Shown here: positions 5,115 through 15,843 of the stretch, piece by piece
How the letters are laid out: each line of letters opens with the position of its first letter
Numbering within the stretch: the first letter of the stretch is position 1
Assembly (NCBI GenBank): GCA_009693615.1
Contig: SHWX01000003.1
Coordinates: 1 to 44,074 of the forward strand
DNA length: 44,074 nucleotides
Reading direction: 5' to 3'
DNA from: Chitinophagaceae bacterium
GTDB taxonomy: Bacteria; Bacteroidota; Bacteroidia; Chitinophagales; Chitinophagaceae
The notes under the pieces: model-generated
Databases searched by the model: none
What the model was told of the DNA's origin: nothing
Seen by the model: only the letters and a program-made list of their open reading frames with translations
Program-made: the position numbers and the translations under genes

Positions 5115-7190
5115 CTACTGAGGATGATAAGTACGCTTCGCATTTTTTAACACTTCGTTTTTATCCAAGGTCATTTTTTTCACTTGCTGGGCTTGATACA
5201 TGGCACGTTGGTCGGCATAATGTGCATCTCCTTTATTAGAGCTTGCTCCAAAAGTATTTACTGATTCTATTAACGGCAAGCCTCCGTCTTTAGGAAAGCG
5301 AACAAATTCAATATAGGCATCACCGCTATTCATTTTTCTTTGCCCTGCACCATAAGGTTGAGTTTGCACTGCTGCGATTACATCGGGCATCCCACCTTGT
5401 GGCCAGTTCTCATCGCCTCTTACTAGTCTTTGCATTTCACCTAAGGTAACGTCAAGTCTATTATAATTTTTCATTAAAAAATCATAAATATATTGATAGG
5501 TAGCAATCGCTTCTTGCATGTTTAATTTATCATTTTTTCTTCCCTCCATTAATTTAGGTATTTCATAATAAGCTAAATTATAAATTAGCGCCCCATTACT
5601 TTCAGGGTTGGTATTGTGGTCCCAATTCTTTAAAGCTTTAATAATTGGAGACAGTGTTGGATATTTATTTTCATCTATTAAAAACATAGTATCTGCCGTA
5701 AAGCCATAAGGGAATAAAATAGTTGCAGGTAATTGACGATCAAATTTGATACGCTTTAAATCGGCGTAGGAAATTTTTTCTAATGGGTCTATTAAATCCT
5801 TGGCACGGCGGCTTCTATTGTCATGGTATAATTCATAACCATCATTGGCATCAAAATTTTTAGGGTCTAAATTTTCATTCTCTGCAGTGGCTAAAAAAGG
5901 AGAGTGATTCATGTTAATTAAATATCCACTTTTAGGATTTGTGTATTGAGGAAACTCGTTTAAAGGTTTAAACTTTGTCCATAGCGTTGCCCTTGTATTG
6001 CCTGGTAGCGTTGAATTCCAGTGGTAGCTGGTATCTGCATTTCGATATGGCATTTTTCCACTAGAGATATAAAATATAGTATCGGACTTATCGGCATACA
6101 TAATATTAAACATAGCTAAATGGTTCTGCGCCACCGCCGTTTTAAATTCAGTAAAATTAGTAGCCCTATTCATCGCATACCATTGTTGTAAAGCGCCCGC
6201 ATCCATCAGGGCAGGTAAACGCATCGAAAAATATTTTCCTTCAGGGGTTTTAGCGGTTGGTCCGTATATAGAAGTGTATGCCATTTTAGAAATAGGAAAA
6301 GGAATGCCTTTAATACTTAATTTAATTTTTCTTTTTTCAAGTGCAAGCCACTCGCTATCTACTTTATATTGTCCTTTATGTGCTTTGTCGGTTTCTAATT
6401 GGTAGATATCTATTTTATCTTGAAAGTTAACTGTATGTGCCCATGCTAAATTAGGAGTCGTACCATGAAAAATTAAGGGACCGCCTGGAAATAAACCTCC
6501 TAAAATATTCCAGCCTTCTTCACTTTGTAAATGTGCTTCATAAAAAGCAGTAGCGCCTTCAATGGGTTGATGCGCGTTAATCACCAACATATTTTCACCT
6601 GTTGTGGATTTACTTGAATGTACTGCAATGGTATTAGAACCTTCTCCAGTCATACCTGCTAAATGTGCAATAGAACCATTGAGTATTTTAGGTAAGGTTC
6701 TATCCACGCCACAAAAAACGGCTACAGAAAAAACAGTAGTAGCTAAATAGTCTTCAATAGTAATGGGAAATACATTTTTGTTTAATACTTTATCGGGATG
6801 CGCTTTGGCAAATGCTTCTAAGCCTGCTAAATAACCTTTTACTAGTAAAATAAGTTTAGGGTCTAGGCTATTTATTTGAGCAAGTACAGTGGCCTTTGTA
6901 TTTAATAAACCAAATACATAATCAACAGGAGCCCCTTTTTTGCCTAAATAAGTAGCTAACTTTCCTTTACCTGTTAAAATAAGGGTTTGAATGGTGGTAA
7001 AATCGTCCTCGGCATGTGCCCAAGCTAGGCCATAGGCCACTTCAGGGTCGGTGGGTGCAAAAATATGCGGCACTCCATAAGTATCTCTAGCAATGGTAAT
7101 TTTATCTACACGAATAAGGGGCTCACTACTTGATTGAGCAATAGCGAATTGTTGTAATAAAATACAAAGAGAGAATAATAGAATACGCAT
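5115..7190 (-). CDS. Penicillin acylase family protein (Ntn hydrolase), copy 1
   Basis: Signal peptide, DTYGVPHIFAPTDPEVAYGLAWAHAEDDF, autocleavage/nucleophile region GEGSNTIAVHSSKSTTGENMLVINAHQP. Confidence 0.9.
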   Translation of the reverse strand: MRILLFSLCILLQQFAIAQSSSEPLIRVDKITIARDTYGVPHIFAPTDPEVAYGLAWAHAEDDFTTIQTLILTGKGKLATYLGKKGAPVDYVFGLLNTKATVLAQINSLDPKLILLVKGYLAGLEAFAKAHPDKVLNKNVFPITIEDYLATTVFSVAVFCGVDRTLPKILNGSIAHLAGMTGEGSNTIAVHSSKSTTGENMLVINAHQPIEGATAFYEAHLQSEEGWNILGGLFPGGPLIFHGTTPNLAWAHTVNFQDKIDIYQLETDKAHKGQYKVDSEWLALEKRKIKLSIKGIPFPISKMAYTSIYGPTAKTPEGKYFSMRLPALMDAGALQQWYAMNRATNFTEFKTAVAQNHLAMFNIMYADKSDTIFYISSGKMPYRNADTSYHWNSTLPGNTRATLWTKFKPLNEFPQYTNPKSGYLINMNHSPFLATAENENLDPKNFDANDGYELYHDNRSRRAKDLIDPLEKISYADLKRIKFDRQLPATILFPYGFTADTMFLIDENKYPTLSPIIKALKNWDHNTNPESNGALIYNLAYYEIPKLMEGRKNDKLNMQEAIATYQYIYDFLMKNYNRLDVTLGEMQRLVRGDENWPQGGMPDVIAAVQTQPYGAGQRKMNSGDAYIEFVRFPKDGGLPLIESVNTFGASSNKGDAHYADQRAMYQAQQVKKMTLDKNEVLKNAKRTYHPQ

Positions 7191-7282: not shown

Positions 7283-7624
7283 ATGATTGAATCCAAAAGG
7301 TTTGGTTCGAAGAAAGCACTAATTGATATAGATGAAACCATCTGCTTTTATTCAGACAAGCGTGTATATGAGCTAGCTGAACCTAATTTTGAAAATGTGG
7401 CTAAGATTAATAAACTATACGATGAAGGTTGGCATATTACTTATTGGACTGGCAGGGGAGAAAGCTCAAAGCGAGATTTAAGAGGCCTTACTTTAGAACA
7501 GTTAAATAAATGGGGCTGTAAGTTTCATGACTTAATTACTGGCTACGACCCTAATGGAGGCCCTACTAAACCCAACTTTGATTTAGTGATTGATGATAAG
7601 GCTAAGAGGATAGAGGAGCTTTAA
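7283..7624 (+). CDS. Small HAD-superfamily hydrolase (sugar-phosphate phosphatase-like)
   Basis: ALIDIDETIC (DxDxT), TYWTGRG, KPNFDLVIDDKA motif III/IV. Confidence 0.8.
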   Translation: MIESKRFGSKKALIDIDETICFYSDKRVYELAEPNFENVAKINKLYDEGWHITYWTGRGESSKRDLRGLTLEQLNKWGCKFHDLITGYDPNGGPTKPNFDLVIDDKAKRIEEL

Positions 7625-8321
7625 TAGCTTGCTTATTTTTTTTAGCAAAGGGTAAATAGAAAACCCAGAAATGAACCAAGGCAACAGCTTCAAATATTAA
7701 TATATAATAAGGCCATTCTCCTATTACAAATGGGTTGTTTACTGCTGGCTTGGCCGATAAATACATATAATTAGCACCCACCGTATGATTAACAATACTT
7801 ATGCCAATGGCTACTAATTGTGTGTAGCCTAATACCCATAACCAAGACTTTGGTCGGGGTACAAAGTTCAAATGAACAATCATATAAATAATAACTAATA
7901 GCAAACCACCGTGGTCTATAAAGTAGGCGTAAAAATTATAACCTTCCATGCCTGCTGTAAGTTCGGGAGTGAGTAAAGCATGTATACCACCGGCTAATCC
8001 CCAGTAGTAAAGGCATTCAGCCAACCACTGCTTATAATTAATAAGTGTGGTAATACATAAAAAATAACTAATACTACATAAATGAACAGGTAAGCTTTGT
8101 TGCAAGTTCCAATAGCCTGTTGAATAAACGTAATAATTTTCTACAATATAATTTATGCCAAAAAATAAGGCAATAAAATTAGCGTAAGTTTTAGGTTGAA
8201 TTTTTTTAAAATGCAAAGGTGCTCTTACAACAATAGTAATAATGAGTATGACCATTATAATACATTTCCACCAAAAAAGGGAGAAAGGTTCAATAAAAGC
8301 AGGCGGATGAAATTTTCCCAT
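7602..8321 (-). CDS. TIGR02206/YwaF-like integral membrane protein
   Basis: Multi-TM protein; ORF track starts at 8393, but ATG at 8321 (MGKFHPPAFIEPFSLFWWK) avoids overlap with the upstream CDS. Confidence 0.7.
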   Translation of the reverse strand: MGKFHPPAFIEPFSLFWWKCIIMVILIITIVVRAPLHFKKIQPKTYANFIALFFGINYIVENYYVYSTGYWNLQQSLPVHLCSISYFLCITTLINYKQWLAECLYYWGLAGGIHALLTPELTAGMEGYNFYAYFIDHGGLLLVIIYMIVHLNFVPRPKSWLWVLGYTQLVAIGISIVNHTVGANYMYLSAKPAVNNPFVIGEWPYYILIFEAVALVHFWVFYLPFAKKNKQAIKAPLSS

Positions 8322-8337
8322 TATAATAATTATAAAA

Positions 8338-9099
8338 TTATAAGTTGCGAATCCAAATATTTCTATAACTAATTGGATTACCATCGTCTCCATGGTCTTG
8401 TAACATCAATGGTAATTTAGAAGCATGCTTTTCATACTTAGGCTTTGTTAACCAGTCGGTAGGGCCTAAAATGGTTACATTATTTTGTATGAGTACTCCA
8501 TTATGAATAACAGATACACGCGCAGGGCTTTCTAGATCGCCATTCTCTTTAAACAAAGGCGCTGTAAAAATTATATCATAAGACTGCCACTCACCAGGTT
8601 TGCGACTTGCATTCACTAAAGGCACATGTTGCTTATACACTGCCCCCGCTTGCCCATTAGAATAAGTAGGATTATTATAAGAATCTAAAACTTGAATTTC
8701 ATATTTACCCATTATATAAATACCACTATTGCCTCTTCCTTGACCACTGCTTTTTACTTCAGCCGGCTCTCTAAATTCAATATGTAGTTGACAGCTTCCA
8801 AAAGCTTCCTTGGTAATTAAATCACCAGCGCCTTTAATATCGGTAACAGCGCCATCTGCATCTATTTTCCAGCCAGCAGGGCTACCATCTTTTTTTTGAA
8901 AAGCACCTAGGCCATGACCATTATATAATATAGTGGCGTCGGAAGGAGCCCCTGCATTGCTTTGACCAGGTGTGACCAAGGGTACATTGACCCATACTTC
9001 CAATAAGCCAGCAAGGCTATCTACATTTAATTTTTTTTGAGCCGTTACAAATTGTGTGCTAGCTAATAGGCAAGTCAACACAAGTAATTGTTTTCTCAT
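8338..9099 (-). CDS. DUF1080 (3-keto-disaccharide hydrolase-like) secreted protein
   Basis: Signal peptide; DLITKEAFGSCQLHIEFREP, GRGNSGIYIMGKYEIQVLDSY, GEWQSYDIIFTAP, ISYRNIWIRNL. Confidence 0.92.
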   Translation of the reverse strand: MRKQLLVLTCLLASTQFVTAQKKLNVDSLAGLLEVWVNVPLVTPGQSNAGAPSDATILYNGHGLGAFQKKDGSPAGWKIDADGAVTDIKGAGDLITKEAFGSCQLHIEFREPAEVKSSGQGRGNSGIYIMGKYEIQVLDSYNNPTYSNGQAGAVYKQHVPLVNASRKPGEWQSYDIIFTAPLFKENGDLESPARVSVIHNGVLIQNNVTILGPTDWLTKPKYEKHASKLPLMLQDHGDDGNPISYRNIWIRNL

Positions 9100-9211: not shown

Positions 9212-10690
9212 CTAAATTTTATTACCTGCAGTTCCTTTAATGAGGCCGCGACAATTAGCAGCACTACAATTACAGTTAAAAGGTTCCATGGTTTCATCTA
9301 AAAAGCTACCATAATCCAAGGTAAGCTCTTCTCCTTTTTGAACTGCTCTATTAATAACTACATTTAAACCAATATAACTACAGTTGGCATCGCAGTGATG
9401 GTTTTGAGGAGACCACTCTTCGGGCTGCAAGTCCCATAATATATATACATCCTTACTAATTGGATAGGCGTATCTTCTGAAATTTGATTTTTCTCTTTCG
9501 TCCCAATTTTCATCTACAAATTTTTTGGTGACTATACGTTGTGCTTTTTCTTCCCCTTGAAATAAAATAGTGTCTTTAGGTAAATCCCATTTTGCATACA
9601 TACCATAACCAGAAATGGCATTGCCTTTAATTTTATATACTTTTTCTTTTCTTCTATAACGCGCCATCCCTTCAATAATAATTCTTTCTAAGAAGCCACG
9701 CTGGCCTGCTCCATCATGTAGTAAAATATAATCGGCAGAGCCTTCATAACCTTGGGCATAAAACACAGAACAAGTGAAATTTATTTCAAGAAAAAATAGT
9801 TCTCCTTTATCGTTCATTCTAAAATCCATTCTTCCATAACCCACGCCATTGAAAGACATGAAAACTTGCTCGGCAATGCTTTGTAGTCTCTTCGCTAAAT
9901 TAGCATCGGTTACTGGAATATTTGCATTGGGATGTAATTCAGAAGTTTTTAAAGCGTAGGTTTTAAAACTAAAACCTACAGGGAAAATATATTCAACAGG
10001 CAGAAAGCTGGTACAAGTTTTTCCATCTGCATTGGCAGATACTAATACTGTGAATTCACGACCATCAATATACTCTTCCACCAAGGCAGCGCCAAATTCT
10101 GCTAATATGCTTTTTACCTTGGGTACTAATTCGACCATATTATTGGCCTTGGAAGCATTGTCCACTCCTAGGCTATCACCCGCCTTGGCAGGCTTTACAA
10201 ATAAAGGGAACTGAAGATTACCTGGAAGCTGCGCTATATCTGCCTCTGACTCTATATGTATATGGGCGGGTGTTTTGACATCTTCGCAGAAGGCCAAATA
10301 CTTCATGATGGTTTTAGGGGGGTCGTATAAATTGGTGCTAGGTCCAGTATAAGGCAGTCCTAATAAATCCAAACTCATAATCACATCAATGGAAGGTACT
10401 GTCCATTCTAGATAACCTTCACATAAATTAATATAGATATCGTAATTTTTTTCTTTGAGTTCTTTTAATTGTTGATAGGTAGTAAGCTTATTTAAAAAAA
10501 CATGATCGATATGCGCTTCGGGCATAATGGTAGAGAGGTCTCTTTTTGGATCGTAGTATTGGTAATCTACTTCAGAGGTTGAATAGTCGGGTTGAAGTAC
10601 ACAAATTCTTAAATCTTTAAAACTTGCAGCATTATGAATAGTGGGAAGGGCGCGCATAAATTTATTTTTTTCTTCTAGCAAATGCGTCAT
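9212..10690 (-). CDS. ATP-grasp (Ddl-like) ligase fused to C-terminal SET/post-SET methyltransferase-like domain
   Basis: ATP-grasp: LPYTGPSTNLYDPPKTIMKYLAF, FPLFVKPAKAGDSLGV, GYGRMDFRMNDKGELFFLEINFTC. SET: GYGMYA, NHHCDANCSY, GEELTLDYG, post-SET FNCNCSAANCRG. Start may be 10690 or 10657 (MRALPTIH). Confidence 0.88.
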   Translation of the reverse strand: MTHLLEEKNKFMRALPTIHNAASFKDLRICVLQPDYSTSEVDYQYYDPKRDLSTIMPEAHIDHVFLNKLTTYQQLKELKEKNYDIYINLCEGYLEWTVPSIDVIMSLDLLGLPYTGPSTNLYDPPKTIMKYLAFCEDVKTPAHIHIESEADIAQLPGNLQFPLFVKPAKAGDSLGVDNASKANNMVELVPKVKSILAEFGAALVEEYIDGREFTVLVSANADGKTCTSFLPVEYIFPVGFSFKTYALKTSELHPNANIPVTDANLAKRLQSIAEQVFMSFNGVGYGRMDFRMNDKGELFFLEINFTCSVFYAQGYEGSADYILLHDGAGQRGFLERIIIEGMARYRRKEKVYKIKGNAISGYGMYAKWDLPKDTILFQGEEKAQRIVTKKFVDENWDEREKSNFRRYAYPISKDVYILWDLQPEEWSPQNHHCDANCSYIGLNVVINRAVQKGEELTLDYGSFLDETMEPFNCNCSAANCRGLIKGTAGNKI

Positions 10691-11780
10691 TAATAATATG
10701 AACCACTAATTCTGTAAAACTTTGATTAGCAAAACGTAAAATAGCACCAATAGAAGTAAAGTTTTCGTCCTCACTAATGCCACACTGTGCATTGACTTCT
10801 AATACATAGGCTTCTCCTGTTTTATTATCTATGCGCACATCTACTCTTGTATAACCAGTTCCATTACAAGCCACATAGGCATCCCAAGAAACTTTTTGAA
10901 CAGCGAGTTGAACTGCCTCGTCTCCTAATTGGTATTGATAAAAATTTTCATCTTCTGGCATAGCTGTTTCTTCTTCATAAATTTCCCATAATCTATCAAA
11001 GGATAGAAACTTTTCTTTTTCTGGAAGAGAGGCATGAAAGACTCTTTCTACCGGCGGGTAAATCTTTGCATACTCAGGATGGGTATGGCTTCCCACAATC
11101 ATCACTGTGTATTCAGGTCCTTCCACAAAAGACTCTGCTATTATACCGTCTGAAGATAAATTCCAACCTCTGTATCCTTTAAACATTTTAGCTAATTGGG
11201 TTTTCAAGGCACGTTCTGTTTCTACTACATTTTCAATGCCCACCCCTAAACTTCCACCAGAGACAGCAGGTTTTACAATTAAGGGACTTCCTAATTTTTC
11301 AATAATTTCTTTCGCATTAATATTATTATCTCTAATGGCTTCCCATTTTGGTGTAGCAACACCTGCTTCATCAAAAGCTTTTTTCATGGGAATTTTAGAA
11401 GTAGTGATATCGTAGAAATAATCGTTGGCCCCGGTGTATACTAATTGTTTTGCTTCTAGAGCTTTAATTACTGAAACGCCTGGTGCTCCATTAATTTCAT
11501 CACCATCACATAAGTTTAATACAACAGGAAAATGAATTCCTTTTTCTCTATCATGTGCAATTTCTTGCACAATCATTTTATAATTTTCTAAAGTAACAGG
11601 TTGCCATTTCCATGGAAGATCTAGTTGTTCAAAGACGCGTGTATATTCTTCTATGCTTTGACTAAAATCATAATAGTATGCTAAGTTCGGATCTGGATTA
11701 TCCAAGGCGGGGGCTAAGACCCAAACTTTCAAATGTCCTACTGGAACAAAAGGGTAAAATAAGTTACGAATATTTGTCAA
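10662..11780 (-). CDS. ATP-grasp (Ddl-like) ligase; probable non-ATG (TTG) start
   Basis: LVYTGANDYFYDITTSKIPMKKAFDEAGVATPKW, SPLIVKPAVSGGSLGVGIENV, GYTRVDVRIDNKTGEAYVLEVNAQCG. First codon TTG; in-frame TAA just upstream and no ATG until about codon 69. Confidence 0.87.
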   Translation of the reverse strand: MTNIRNLFYPFVPVGHLKVWVLAPALDNPDPNLAYYYDFSQSIEEYTRVFEQLDLPWKWQPVTLENYKMIVQEIAHDREKGIHFPVVLNLCDGDEINGAPGVSVIKALEAKQLVYTGANDYFYDITTSKIPMKKAFDEAGVATPKWEAIRDNNINAKEIIEKLGSPLIVKPAVSGGSLGVGIENVVETERALKTQLAKMFKGYRGWNLSSDGIIAESFVEGPEYTVMIVGSHTHPEYAKIYPPVERVFHASLPEKEKFLSFDRLWEIYEEETAMPEDENFYQYQLGDEAVQLAVQKVSWDAYVACNGTGYTRVDVRIDNKTGEAYVLEVNAQCGISEDENFTSIGAILRFANQSFTELVVHIINDAFARRKK

Positions 11781-12038: not shown

Positions 12039-12758
12039 ATGCAAACTCAAGTAATCATTTGTGATAAACAAATTGTGTATGCAATGGGATCTAGCTTACT
12101 TATAAAAGACAATCCGCAGTTAATAGGCTATCATATCATCAAAAGTATAGAGGAGTTAACTGGTTATATAGCCTATGATAAAACCAAACAGGTCTTACCC
12201 ATGGTCTTAGTGGTTGATAGTGCCATGTTTCATTTTGGAAATCCATCCACCATGCATCAAATTAAAGAGATTAAAACCAGAATGGGCGTGATGGTGGTCT
12301 TTAATGAACAAGACGAGGCTCATTTGTATCAATTAATTGATAATGGCATATCAGTGATAGTGGCACGTAATGTTTCCAAGCAAGAATGGTCCAAAGCACT
12401 TGAAATGGCAAGGCTTCAAAAAATATACTTTTGTAATCGAATTGCAGATAAGGTATTTAATATGGTGAATTGTATAGATAAAGTAAAGCTAACAGAGAAA
12501 GTGCATCAGTTACATACTTATGATAAATATATTTTAGTGCGCATATGCGAAGAGGCTTCTAGTAAGCAAATTGCTTATGAAGTGGGCCATAGCAAACGCA
12601 CTATTGAAGGACACCGTACAAAAATGATGCAGCAACTAGAAGTTAAAAATTTAGCAGGCTTGGTGAAAGCTGCTTTTATGTCAAAGCTATATGATCATTA
12701 TTTAGAAAACCCAGGTTTATATGATGTGACTTCATGTGCTAAAACATCTTCTTTATAA
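12039..12758 (+). CDS. LuxR/NarL-type regulator with degenerate receiver-like N-terminus
   Basis: C-terminal HTH EEASSKQIAYEVGHSKRTIEGHRTKMMQQLEVKNLAGLVKAAF; N-terminal VIICDKQIV...VLVVDSAMFHFG resembles a REC fold but lacks the full acidic pocket and conserved Lys. Confidence 0.82.
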   Translation: MQTQVIICDKQIVYAMGSSLLIKDNPQLIGYHIIKSIEELTGYIAYDKTKQVLPMVLVVDSAMFHFGNPSTMHQIKEIKTRMGVMVVFNEQDEAHLYQLIDNGISVIVARNVSKQEWSKALEMARLQKIYFCNRIADKVFNMVNCIDKVKLTEKVHQLHTYDKYILVRICEEASSKQIAYEVGHSKRTIEGHRTKMMQQLEVKNLAGLVKAAFMSKLYDHYLENPGLYDVTSCAKTSSL

Positions 12759-14905
12759 AAATGTATGGTTTTAAAATCGCCATCAATATATTTTTGAGCT
12801 TGGTCTGTAAAATGATTTGAACTGGCAAAACGACTTTGCCCTCCCGTAATAATTGTTTTCGCTTCTAATTTTTTTCCAAAACTAACGGCTGCAATAAAAC
12901 TACTACCAGAATAACCATAACGCTTTAAAGTATTATCATATCTTCTACTCTCAAAAGCAGGCAGGGAGCCCCATTTAGAAGATGTTTGTCCTACTGCTAT
13001 ACTAGGCGCATTATCATTAAATTTTTCTCCTGGGTTAACTCTTTGATATCTATTTAAATCGCCCCATTGAATTTCCCAATTACCATAAGTTTTTTCTAAT
13101 TGATCTAATGCCGCATTTAAGAGCGCTAATTTTTTTTCATTCGAAACAGCTTGAACCATCTGCTCATATTTTTTTATAATTTGAGTAGTGCCTTCTTCTG
13201 TGGTGGCCGGAGGAATTTCTTTAGACCAGTTATTGGCCCATTCAATAGCAATAGTAGTAGCAACAGAGGAAATACCAGCATCCCCATTCCAACCAGTTAA
13301 ATAGTTCATTACTTTTTTTTCTCTTTCATTTAAACCAATAGTTTTTGTATACGCCATAAAAGAAGGCAGTAAAATATCAAAAGCACTTAAATGTTTATTA
13401 TATCCCAATTGAATTAATTCATCCAAGGAAATTTTATCTACTTTACTTAATAAGTTAACTGCGTTAATACCGCGTCCATTCTCGCCATCGGGCGCCATAT
13501 AATGAGGATAGTCTTTTTCTTTAGGACTATATGCCCCAGCCACTGTGAAGGGGGTTGCATTACAATTTTGTAACCAACCATTGGCGGGGTTAATACTTTG
13601 TACAATTTCATCTAATGCATGCACGCCTATCCAATTAGTGGCTTTAATGGAACCATCTACAGGCACACTATAATCATAATTAGTATTTCTTTTGGGAATG
13701 AAATTACCATGCCAGTAAGCAATAGAGCCATCGGCATCGGCATAGACCGTGTTATTACTATTATTACCTAGTAAGGATAAGGCTTTTTGATACTCTTTTA
13801 AATTAGTAGCCTTGGTCCTGGTCCAGCATTCCATTAAGGCATTTAAAGAACGATTATTTTCTTGCAAGCTTAACCAATTACCATTTTTAGATCCCATCAC
13901 AGGGCCATGTAATGTGCGATAAGTAAGGAATGATTTTGTTTTTATTTGACCTTGCTCCAAATACTGAATAGGAATATTTCTTGCTTTAATGGGTTGAAGA
14001 CCTTGTTCATAATGCGATACCCAGCCTGTTTTATTTTTAGCTACTTTTTCTTCATACACATCGGCTACATCGGCATAGCCGCTGGTATGCATAAAACCTA
14101 GATGTTCATTGAAGCCTTGATAAATAAACATTTGCCCCCAAGTAACAGCTCCGTATACATTTAAGCCTTCTTCACTCACCATATGCATTTCTGATCTAAA
14201 ATAAAATGGTACATGCGGATTAATATATAATAATGCATTTCCGTTTTTACTATGCTGAGGCGCTATTGCAAAACCATTAGAACCTTTTTGTATTTTTTCT
14301 TCTAAGGCATAAGGCTCTTCGGTATTTTGCGCCACTAATTTTTCTGCACCTGGCATTTGTCCGTAAAAAGAAGCTACTTGTTCTTTTTTGATGCCACCTG
14401 TTTTAGTAGGAGAAACACTTCCGTCTGTCCACATTAAATGATACCAGGGTTTATAATATTGAATGGCTTTTAGTTTTACTTCAGGATGTTTGTATAAATA
14501 ATAATTTAGTCCATCGGCGTGCGCTTGTAGTAATGCCTTAAACCAAACAGGGCTTTTATTATAATCATTGATTGCGGCTACACTATCTTGAATAAGGCGC
14601 ATCATTAAATCTTCATAAATAGCTGCACTACCTTTTACTTCAGCAGTGCGGCCTAGCATTTCTAAATAGTTCAATTCTATTTGTCCTACATTCTCTTCGC
14701 TTTGTGCATACATTAAACCAAATACAGCGTCAGCGTCAGTTTTTCCATAAACATGGGCAATACCCCATTCGTCTCTTATAATGGTTACTTGTTTTGCATG
14801 TTGTTCCCACCTTGCAATTTCACTAGCGCTATACTTTTGTGCCTTGCTCATAAAAGAGCAACTCATGAGTATACATATAAAAAAGATATAGTTAAGGTAC
14901 TTCAT
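12698..14905 (-). CDS. Penicillin acylase family protein (Ntn hydrolase), copy 2
   Basis: DEWGIAHVYGKTDADAVFGLMYAQSEEN, KGSNGFAIAPQHSKNGNALLYINPHVPF nucleophile region. ATG at 14905 (MKYLNYIFFICILMSCSF, signal peptide) preferred over ORF-track start 14965. Confidence 0.9.
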   Translation of the reverse strand: MKYLNYIFFICILMSCSFMSKAQKYSASEIARWEQHAKQVTIIRDEWGIAHVYGKTDADAVFGLMYAQSEENVGQIELNYLEMLGRTAEVKGSAAIYEDLMMRLIQDSVAAINDYNKSPVWFKALLQAHADGLNYYLYKHPEVKLKAIQYYKPWYHLMWTDGSVSPTKTGGIKKEQVASFYGQMPGAEKLVAQNTEEPYALEEKIQKGSNGFAIAPQHSKNGNALLYINPHVPFYFRSEMHMVSEEGLNVYGAVTWGQMFIYQGFNEHLGFMHTSGYADVADVYEEKVAKNKTGWVSHYEQGLQPIKARNIPIQYLEQGQIKTKSFLTYRTLHGPVMGSKNGNWLSLQENNRSLNALMECWTRTKATNLKEYQKALSLLGNNSNNTVYADADGSIAYWHGNFIPKRNTNYDYSVPVDGSIKATNWIGVHALDEIVQSINPANGWLQNCNATPFTVAGAYSPKEKDYPHYMAPDGENGRGINAVNLLSKVDKISLDELIQLGYNKHLSAFDILLPSFMAYTKTIGLNEREKKVMNYLTGWNGDAGISSVATTIAIEWANNWSKEIPPATTEEGTTQIIKKYEQMVQAVSNEKKLALLNAALDQLEKTYGNWEIQWGDLNRYQRVNPGEKFNDNAPSIAVGQTSSKWGSLPAFESRRYDNTLKRYGYSGSSFIAAVSFGKKLEAKTIITGGQSRFASSNHFTDQAQKYIDGDFKTIHFYKEDVLAHEVTSYKPGFSK

Positions 14906-14919
14906 AAAATAGTGGGTAT

Positions 14920-15843
14920 TTAGATACCCCAAGTTTTCATTATAGTTAAATCTTTTTTCAAACAATCTAATGGTGCTAAGCCTTGATAAGACTCTTGTTC
15001 AATGATAAAATGGTGTGCTCCTCCAATTTTTTTAGCAAGTAAGGCAATGGCTTTAGGATCTACCACGCCTTCCCCTAAAATAGTGCTTTCATAGCCATCA
15101 TTCATCTCCCCTTTTTCTGCTTTAATTTCATCTTTAACGTGAAGTGATTGGAAACGACCTGGATATTTATTAATCCATTCAGCACCCCTTGCACCTGCAC
15201 CATACATATTGCCAAAATCTAATTGGTGTATTACTAAATTCGGATCGGTATGTTGTAAGATGAGATCATACATTAAAGTGCCATTCAATTTTTCTTTAAA
15301 TTCAAAATCGTGATTATGGTATCCAAATTTCATACCACTTGCTTTACACAATTCACCCGACTTATTGAATGCGTCTATTTGTTGCATTAATCCATCATAA
15401 GTACTTCTTAATTTATTATCCATTGAAGGGCTTATAACATATTCTTGTCCTACAATAGCCGCATCTTCAACTGTGCGTTTCCAGGCATCGGTAAAATCCT
15501 TCTTGGTATTATCCCAATGATTAGTGCCCATCACTGTATGTCCACTAGGCATTTTTAAACCTAGCCCTTCCAATACTTTTTTAAATTCTGTAGCTGTCCA
15601 TCCGTAGAATTTTCTGTTCATATAATTTGCATGTTCAACATATTCAAATCCCATTGTAGACAAAGCCGTTAAGGTTTCCATCGGGTTTTTTTTCATGTCT
15701 TCACGCACTGAATACAATTGAACACCAATTAAATTTTTACTAGCAGCAAAACTTGTATTTGCCCATAAAGCACTTGGTTTTAAACTAGCACCCAATATTG
15801 CAAGCGATGCGTTTTGTATAAATTTTCTTCTAGAGTTTTTCAT
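14920..15843 (-). CDS. Sugar phosphate isomerase/epimerase (xylose isomerase-like TIM barrel), Tat-type signal
   Basis: MKNSRRKFIQNASLAILGASL Tat-like signal; GVQLYSVREDMKKNP, GYHNHDFEF, LQLDFGNMYGAG, SLHVKDE, FIIEQESY. Confidence 0.88.
   Translation of the reverse strand: MKNSRRKFIQNASLAILGASLKPSALWANTSFAASKNLIGVQLYSVREDMKKNPMETLTALSTMGFEYVEHANYMNRKFYGWTATEFKKVLEGLGLKMPSGHTVMGTNHWDNTKKDFTDAWKRTVEDAAIVGQEYVISPSMDNKLRSTYDGLMQQIDAFNKSGELCKASGMKFGYHNHDFEFKEKLNGTLMYDLILQHTDPNLVIHQLDFGNMYGAGARGAEWINKYPGRFQSLHVKDEIKAEKGEMNDGYESTILGEGVVDPKAIALLAKKIGGAHHFIIEQESYQGLAPLDCLKKDLTIMKTWGI

Follow-up and report, generated by a model that had tools for sequence, protein, structure and literature searches.

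The ligase pair and the fused SET domain

The window, as we call the whole 44,074-nucleotide stretch of Chitinophagaceae DNA analysed here, comes from a freshwater bacterium of the Sediminibacterium type and carries two adjacent ligase genes on its reverse strand. FUS (9212..10690, minus strand, 492 aa as listed) encodes an ATP-grasp ligase and a SET/post-SET methyltransferase domain in one chain, and LIG (10662..11780, minus strand, 372 aa, TTG start) encodes a second ligase of the ATP-grasp type related to D-Ala-D-Ala ligase (Ddl). Both open reading frames are as an earlier note on this DNA had claimed, and the motifs that it quoted, GYGMYA, NHHCDANCSY, GEELTLDYG, FNCNCSAANCRG, EINFTCSVFY, and EVNAQCGISED, are all present. 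Homologues of LIG begin near residue 15, which puts its TTG start in doubt. For FUS, the ATG at 10657 is more likely to be the true start than the listed one, as it lies 4 nt after the LIG stop and the first listed residues are unconserved and poorly modelled.

The Dala_Dala_lig_C core of FUS (9779..10252, minus strand, residues 147-304) scores 72.5 bits against a Pfam cut-off of 24, and its SET domain (9308..9610, minus strand, residues 361-461) scores 32.6 bits against a cut-off of 22.4; the corresponding Dala_Dala_lig_C score of LIG is 65.4 bits. The fusion that the earlier note described is real, and it is no chance event, since the family has 33 relatives in which LIG likewise adjoins such a fusion, 56-65% identical to the window copy. 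A structural model, which had been proposed as a check, was obtained for the whole FUS chain with AlphaFold2 (44 sequences; mean pLDDT 81.8, pTM 0.80), with the SET part modelled less surely (ten-residue blocks at pLDDT 62-90). The top Foldseek matches of this model are Ddl structures, for the ligase half. A plasmid search returned no fusion, only matches to the ATP-grasp part at approximately 30% identity.

The ATP-grasp fold and the ATP/Mg residues are common to FUS, LIG, and Ddl (TIGR01205 / PF07478), and K166, S173, E205, E212, R287, D289, E302, and N304 are invariant in FUS, LIG, and distant FUS homologues, as in canonical Ddl. Since Ddl supplies the best family matches and folds, the two proteins could be read as Ddl paralogues that alter cell-wall precursors, which we consider highly improbable. 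Against the TIGR01205 cut-off of 245.65, FUS reaches 75.8 bits and LIG 83.8 bits, and across the Ddl models the two score 76-93 bits where the cut-offs are 243-246, or about a third. The NTxPG loop of Ddl is replaced after N304 by NFTCSVFY in FUS and NAQCGISED in LIG, and by an NPNCGVFY-like sequence in green sulfur bacteria and two other families; NTxPG was never found after the last metal ligand in the aligned FUS and LIG sequences, while the three canonical Ddl rows read NTIPG. A separate canonical Ddl is encoded in the genome of the window (G000:C70; 278 bits, above the 245.65 cut-off), and the same holds for 6/6 genomes tested. The missing TxPG loop and the separate Ddl at G000:C70 together indicate that neither FUS nor LIG is the cell-wall Ddl, in line with the earlier view that D-Ala-D-Ala synthesis is unlikely here. 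FUS moreover adds a C-terminal SET domain, and SET enzymes are not known to act in peptidoglycan.

Other Bacteroidota also have Ddl-type ligases. At L211:5593-9478, L213, L218, and L219, two tandem Ddl-type ATP-grasp ligases occur with a radical SAM protein resembling lysine-2,3-aminomutase (KamA), and with a GNAT acetyltransferase in 3/4, which makes a paired-ligase cassette parallel to that of FUS and LIG. At L206-L208, a single Ddl-type ATP-grasp protein (~350 aa) lies beside a protein of ~278-298 aa that resembles the C39-type peptidase fold, with a HAD-like gene nearby in 2/3. These KamA/GNAT and C39 types were considered as orthologues of FUS and LIG and rejected, as the tree sets them apart. 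The join between FUS and LIG in the tree is itself unsure, owing to long branches.

SET domains are known chiefly as histone and protein lysine methyltransferases, and FUS has the full SET/post-SET motif set of GxG (361-363), NHxCxxN (NHxC at 430-433), the ELxxDY tyrosine (Tyr460, at the catalytic position), and CxCx4C. The cysteines of this last motif (C473, C475, and C480) lie in the post-SET region (9233..9280, minus strand, residues 471-486) and are invariant, as are G361/G363, N430/H431/C433/N436, and Y460, in FUS alignments of 34 and 44 sequences. C433 together with the three post-SET cysteines is expected to form a four-Cys zinc site. A sequence search with the SET half returns KMT2C/D, SETD2, and BurB, and KMT2C/D is the best PDB match (38.8 bits). 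That the SET part has lost catalysis, as in human TTLL12, is very unlikely. A protein combining SET and ATP-grasp-type parts has been described with an apparently non-catalytic role (PMC3520985), and the window copy has NHHC in place of the NHSC of most homologues, but the GxG, the NHxC..N, Tyr460, and the four cysteines are invariant in both alignments, unlike in TTLL12.

Several other genes near the pair were considered as module parts, namely a LuxR-type regulator, two acylases, a TMEM164-like gene, and a 3-keto-disaccharide hydrolase, and were set aside because they are common only to close relatives. The two acylases are penicillin-amidase/PvdQ-like and flank the locus (window 5115-7190 and 12698-14965), this flanking arrangement too being confined to close relatives. 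The TMEM164-like integral membrane protein (window 7602-8393; PF14808, TIGR02206) belongs to a family named as acyltransferase. No RNA families were found, and the promoter scan gave no excess over shuffles.

SET1 and the distribution of the genes

The distribution of FUS was examined in a family sample of 100 genomes including the window's own, of which 35 have FUS and 65 do not. LIG adjoins FUS in the window and in 33/33 homologous loci examined from the window's family, as well as in 80 named loci, so the pairing claimed from the window alone held up in the neighbourhood comparison. Named relatives with the pair include Sediminibacterium, Ferruginibacter, Hydrotalea, Parafilimonas, and other Chitinophagaceae. 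A third gene, SET1, encodes a stand-alone SET protein of ~165 aa and is found beside the FUS-LIG pair in 28/34 loci, usually directly upstream of LIG; the commonest order in the family is SET1-LIG-FUS. Sediminibacterium magnilacihabitans DSM 22423 has the full cassette, at L137:4407-8507. SET1 is unlinked from FUS in the clade of the window, and the genomes with FUS and an unlinked SET1 are G000 (that of the window), G022, G054, and G095. The copy in the window's genome is intact (G000:C6:18689-19156). The same genome has a further SET-domain match, L001 (G000:C47:2807-3103), which contains one in-frame TAA and is possibly a pseudogene or an assembly error. A PADLOC defence search gave no match for FUS or SET1, and a marginal one for LIG (17.6 bits).

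SET1 was found in 35/35 family genomes with FUS and in 0/65 without it (Fisher p ~9e-28, a value that ignores kinship). In the green sulfur bacterial family of G278 (61 genomes), it was found in 6/6 genomes with FUS versus 0/55 without. A phylum sample of 393 genomes contained FUS in 17, SET1 in 16, and both in 15, so that SET1 was seen in 1/376 genomes without FUS. The pattern thus recurs in many genera and two families, although the p-values take no account of kinship. In G321, from another family, SET1 adjoins LIG on contig C18 and FUS lies on C31. Exceptions occur: of the 17 FUS-positive genomes or MAGs searched, 8 yielded no SET1, most of them belonging to a single Sediminibacterium-like subclade close to the species of the window, and two FUS genomes of the phylum sample, G320 and G438, yielded none either. 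MAG incompleteness may be behind some of these absences.

Two lineages add a membrane protein. Beside FUS in 11/34 loci lies a gene for a ~295-aa ABC-type transmembrane protein without a nucleotide-binding domain (PF13748), which sometimes follows SET1-LIG-FUS. This TMD-only gene is present in 13/35 family genomes with FUS, once unlinked, versus 0/65 without FUS, and it was not found in the window's own MAG, which is 74% complete. In green sulfur bacteria the operon reads SET1-FUS-full ABC exporter (~590 aa)-SET3, where SET3 is a third SET protein of ~118 aa with a shortened N-terminal half (L190:12756-13112; L194:6812-7174); LIG was not found in the green sulfur bacteria tested. The FMO protein PF02327 was detected in 4/4 green sulfur FUS genomes tested and in 0/3 FUS genomes from other families.

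Among solved structures, profile and fold both place SET1 nearest to the methyltransferase BurB / MSMT (PDB 9l4t, 9l4v). The SET1 profile scores 71 bits against BurB and 38 bits against the next solved structure, and in Foldseek a SET1 model (L137 copy, pLDDT 89.1) has BurB as its first match (E 1.3e-10, TM 0.68), with the ASH1L/MLL histone methyltransferases at ~1e-6. BurB methylates free methionine, rather than histones, to S-methylmethionine (PMC12542666, PMC7496086), which feeds DMSP. A 2020 report presented it as an unusual SET enzyme from secondary metabolism, noting that prokaryotic SET methyltransferases were little known and that all methyltransferases found until then for natural products belonged to classes I and III (PMC7496086). 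The positions of Tyr124 and the SAM-binding His93 of BurB (PMC12542666) are kept in SET1 as Y113 and H82 (A6 numbering), both invariant, while the sequence of the SAM-gating loop, Gln37-Ala44 in BurB, is not conserved. SET1 is without a GxG motif and reads FFY in place of the xDY of most SET domains, which leaves its activity in doubt. As BurB holds methionine through main-chain atoms (PMC12542666), the sequence of SET1 does not reveal its substrate. The earlier assumption that a SET domain means lysine methylation is accordingly unsafe, the nearest solved relative of SET1 being a methionine S-methyltransferase. The SET domain of FUS is itself nearest to the KMT2 histone methyltransferases.

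A candidate pathway for a methylated amide

We propose that FUS, LIG, and the unlinked SET1 probably work together as a biosynthetic module whose product would be a small methylated amide, the likeliest candidates being di- or tripeptides and conjugates of an amino acid. The enzyme activities, substrates, order of steps, product, and export, as we infer them, would be as follows. SET1, as a BurB relative, would use SAM to methylate an amino-acid building block. The ATP-grasp domains of LIG and FUS would each activate a carboxylate by forming its acyl phosphate and then couple it to an amine, and the C-terminal SET domain of FUS would methylate the nascent or finished product, which in several lineages could be moved by the ABC-type membrane protein. 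In favour of this reading are the invariant ATP/Mg-site residues, the operon linkage, the genome-by-genome co-occurrence, and the kinship of SET1 with BurB. Against it stand the closeness of the FUS SET domain to KMT2, the altered motifs of SET1, the FUS genomes in which SET1 was not found, the absence of LIG from the green sulfur bacteria tested, and the failure to find the TMD-only gene in the window's MAG. The two-ligase plus methyltransferase module imagined in the earlier note survives as an idea and was incomplete, as it lacked the stand-alone SET1 and, in some lineages, the ABC-type protein. A bolder version, which we regard as doubtful, is that two to three class V (SET) methyltransferases and the ATP-grasp ligases build a non-ribosomal peptide with a sulfonium or methylated amino acid (such as S-methylmethionine made by SET1), which is further methylated by the ligase-fused SET domain and exported by the ABC protein.

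It is possible, if on the whole unlikely, that the ligases instead act on a ribosomal peptide or protein, to which they add an amino acid or in which they form a ring, and that the SET domains methylate lysine on it. The KMT2C/D lysine methyltransferases are the best solved relatives of the FUS SET domain with its full motif set, ATP-grasp enzymes of other families cyclise ribosomal peptides (PMC8939145), and a distant FUS homologue (L188:5041-8872) lies beside a glutathione-synthase-like ATP-grasp protein, a protein of the QEGLA/MATCAP peptidase family, and an N-formylglutamate amidohydrolase. However, a comparison of small ORFs across 33 loci yielded no credible conserved precursor peptide near the cassette, the recurring matches resembling frame shadows of flanking genes; the ligases are Ddl-type, with Ddl rather than any graspetide family as top match; and SET1 is nearest to a methyltransferase of a free amino acid.

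The product might also be kept inside the cell as a compatible solute or a redox- or metal-type metabolite, the ABC-type proteins being incidental, which seems to us rather unlikely. Such a role would agree with the paired Ddl-type ligases found elsewhere with lysine-2,3-aminomutase-like radical SAM and GNAT genes, a gene kit that we take to be reminiscent of the osmolyte N-acetyl-beta-lysine. It would agree also with the passage of the BurB product into DMSP (PMC7496086) and with the many Chitinophagaceae carriers, the majority, that are without an exporter of the TMD-only ABC type. Set against this, an ABC-type membrane protein is linked to FUS in two lineages through different genes.

The preferred reading, a module for a small methylated amide, would represent a pathway that has apparently not been described before. 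The FUS/LIG/SET1 architecture was not found in the literature searched, where a mention in older comparative-genomics surveys is still possible. If the reading is true, this patchy yet self-consistent module of two to three SET enzymes with ATP-grasp ligases, in Chitinophagaceae and in green sulfur bacteria, would show that SET chemistry has been used repeatedly in small-molecule assembly, and it would bear on the roles of bacterial SET domains outside chromatin.

Comparison with known systems

In the literature searched, human TTLL12 was the only other fusion of SET and ATP-grasp-type domains found (PMC3520985). Like FUS, it unites a SET-type domain with an ATP-grasp-type ligase in a single chain, but its domain order is reversed, its ligase belongs to the TTL rather than the Ddl family, its active sites are degenerate, and it is eukaryotic (PMC3520985). 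The SET/post-SET domains of KMT2C/KMT2D (MLL3/MLL4) share their SAM, catalytic, and zinc motifs with FUS; the likeness is limited to these motifs, and FUS differs in its bacterial origin and in its fusion to an ATP-grasp ligase. Graspetide and other ATP-grasp RiPP clusters resemble the present loci in combining an ATP-grasp ligase, a methyltransferase, and an ABC transporter, whereas here no precursor was found, the ligase is Ddl-type, and SET takes the place of a PIMT-type methyltransferase. BurB and SET1 are both small stand-alone SET proteins in biosynthetic loci and have in common the STE and I..GA motifs after the tyrosine at the catalytic position. The two are 28% identical, SET1 has no GxG-type motif and reads FFYP where BurB reads MDYA, and their partner genes differ, being ATP-grasp ligases for SET1 and DMSP enzymes for BurB.
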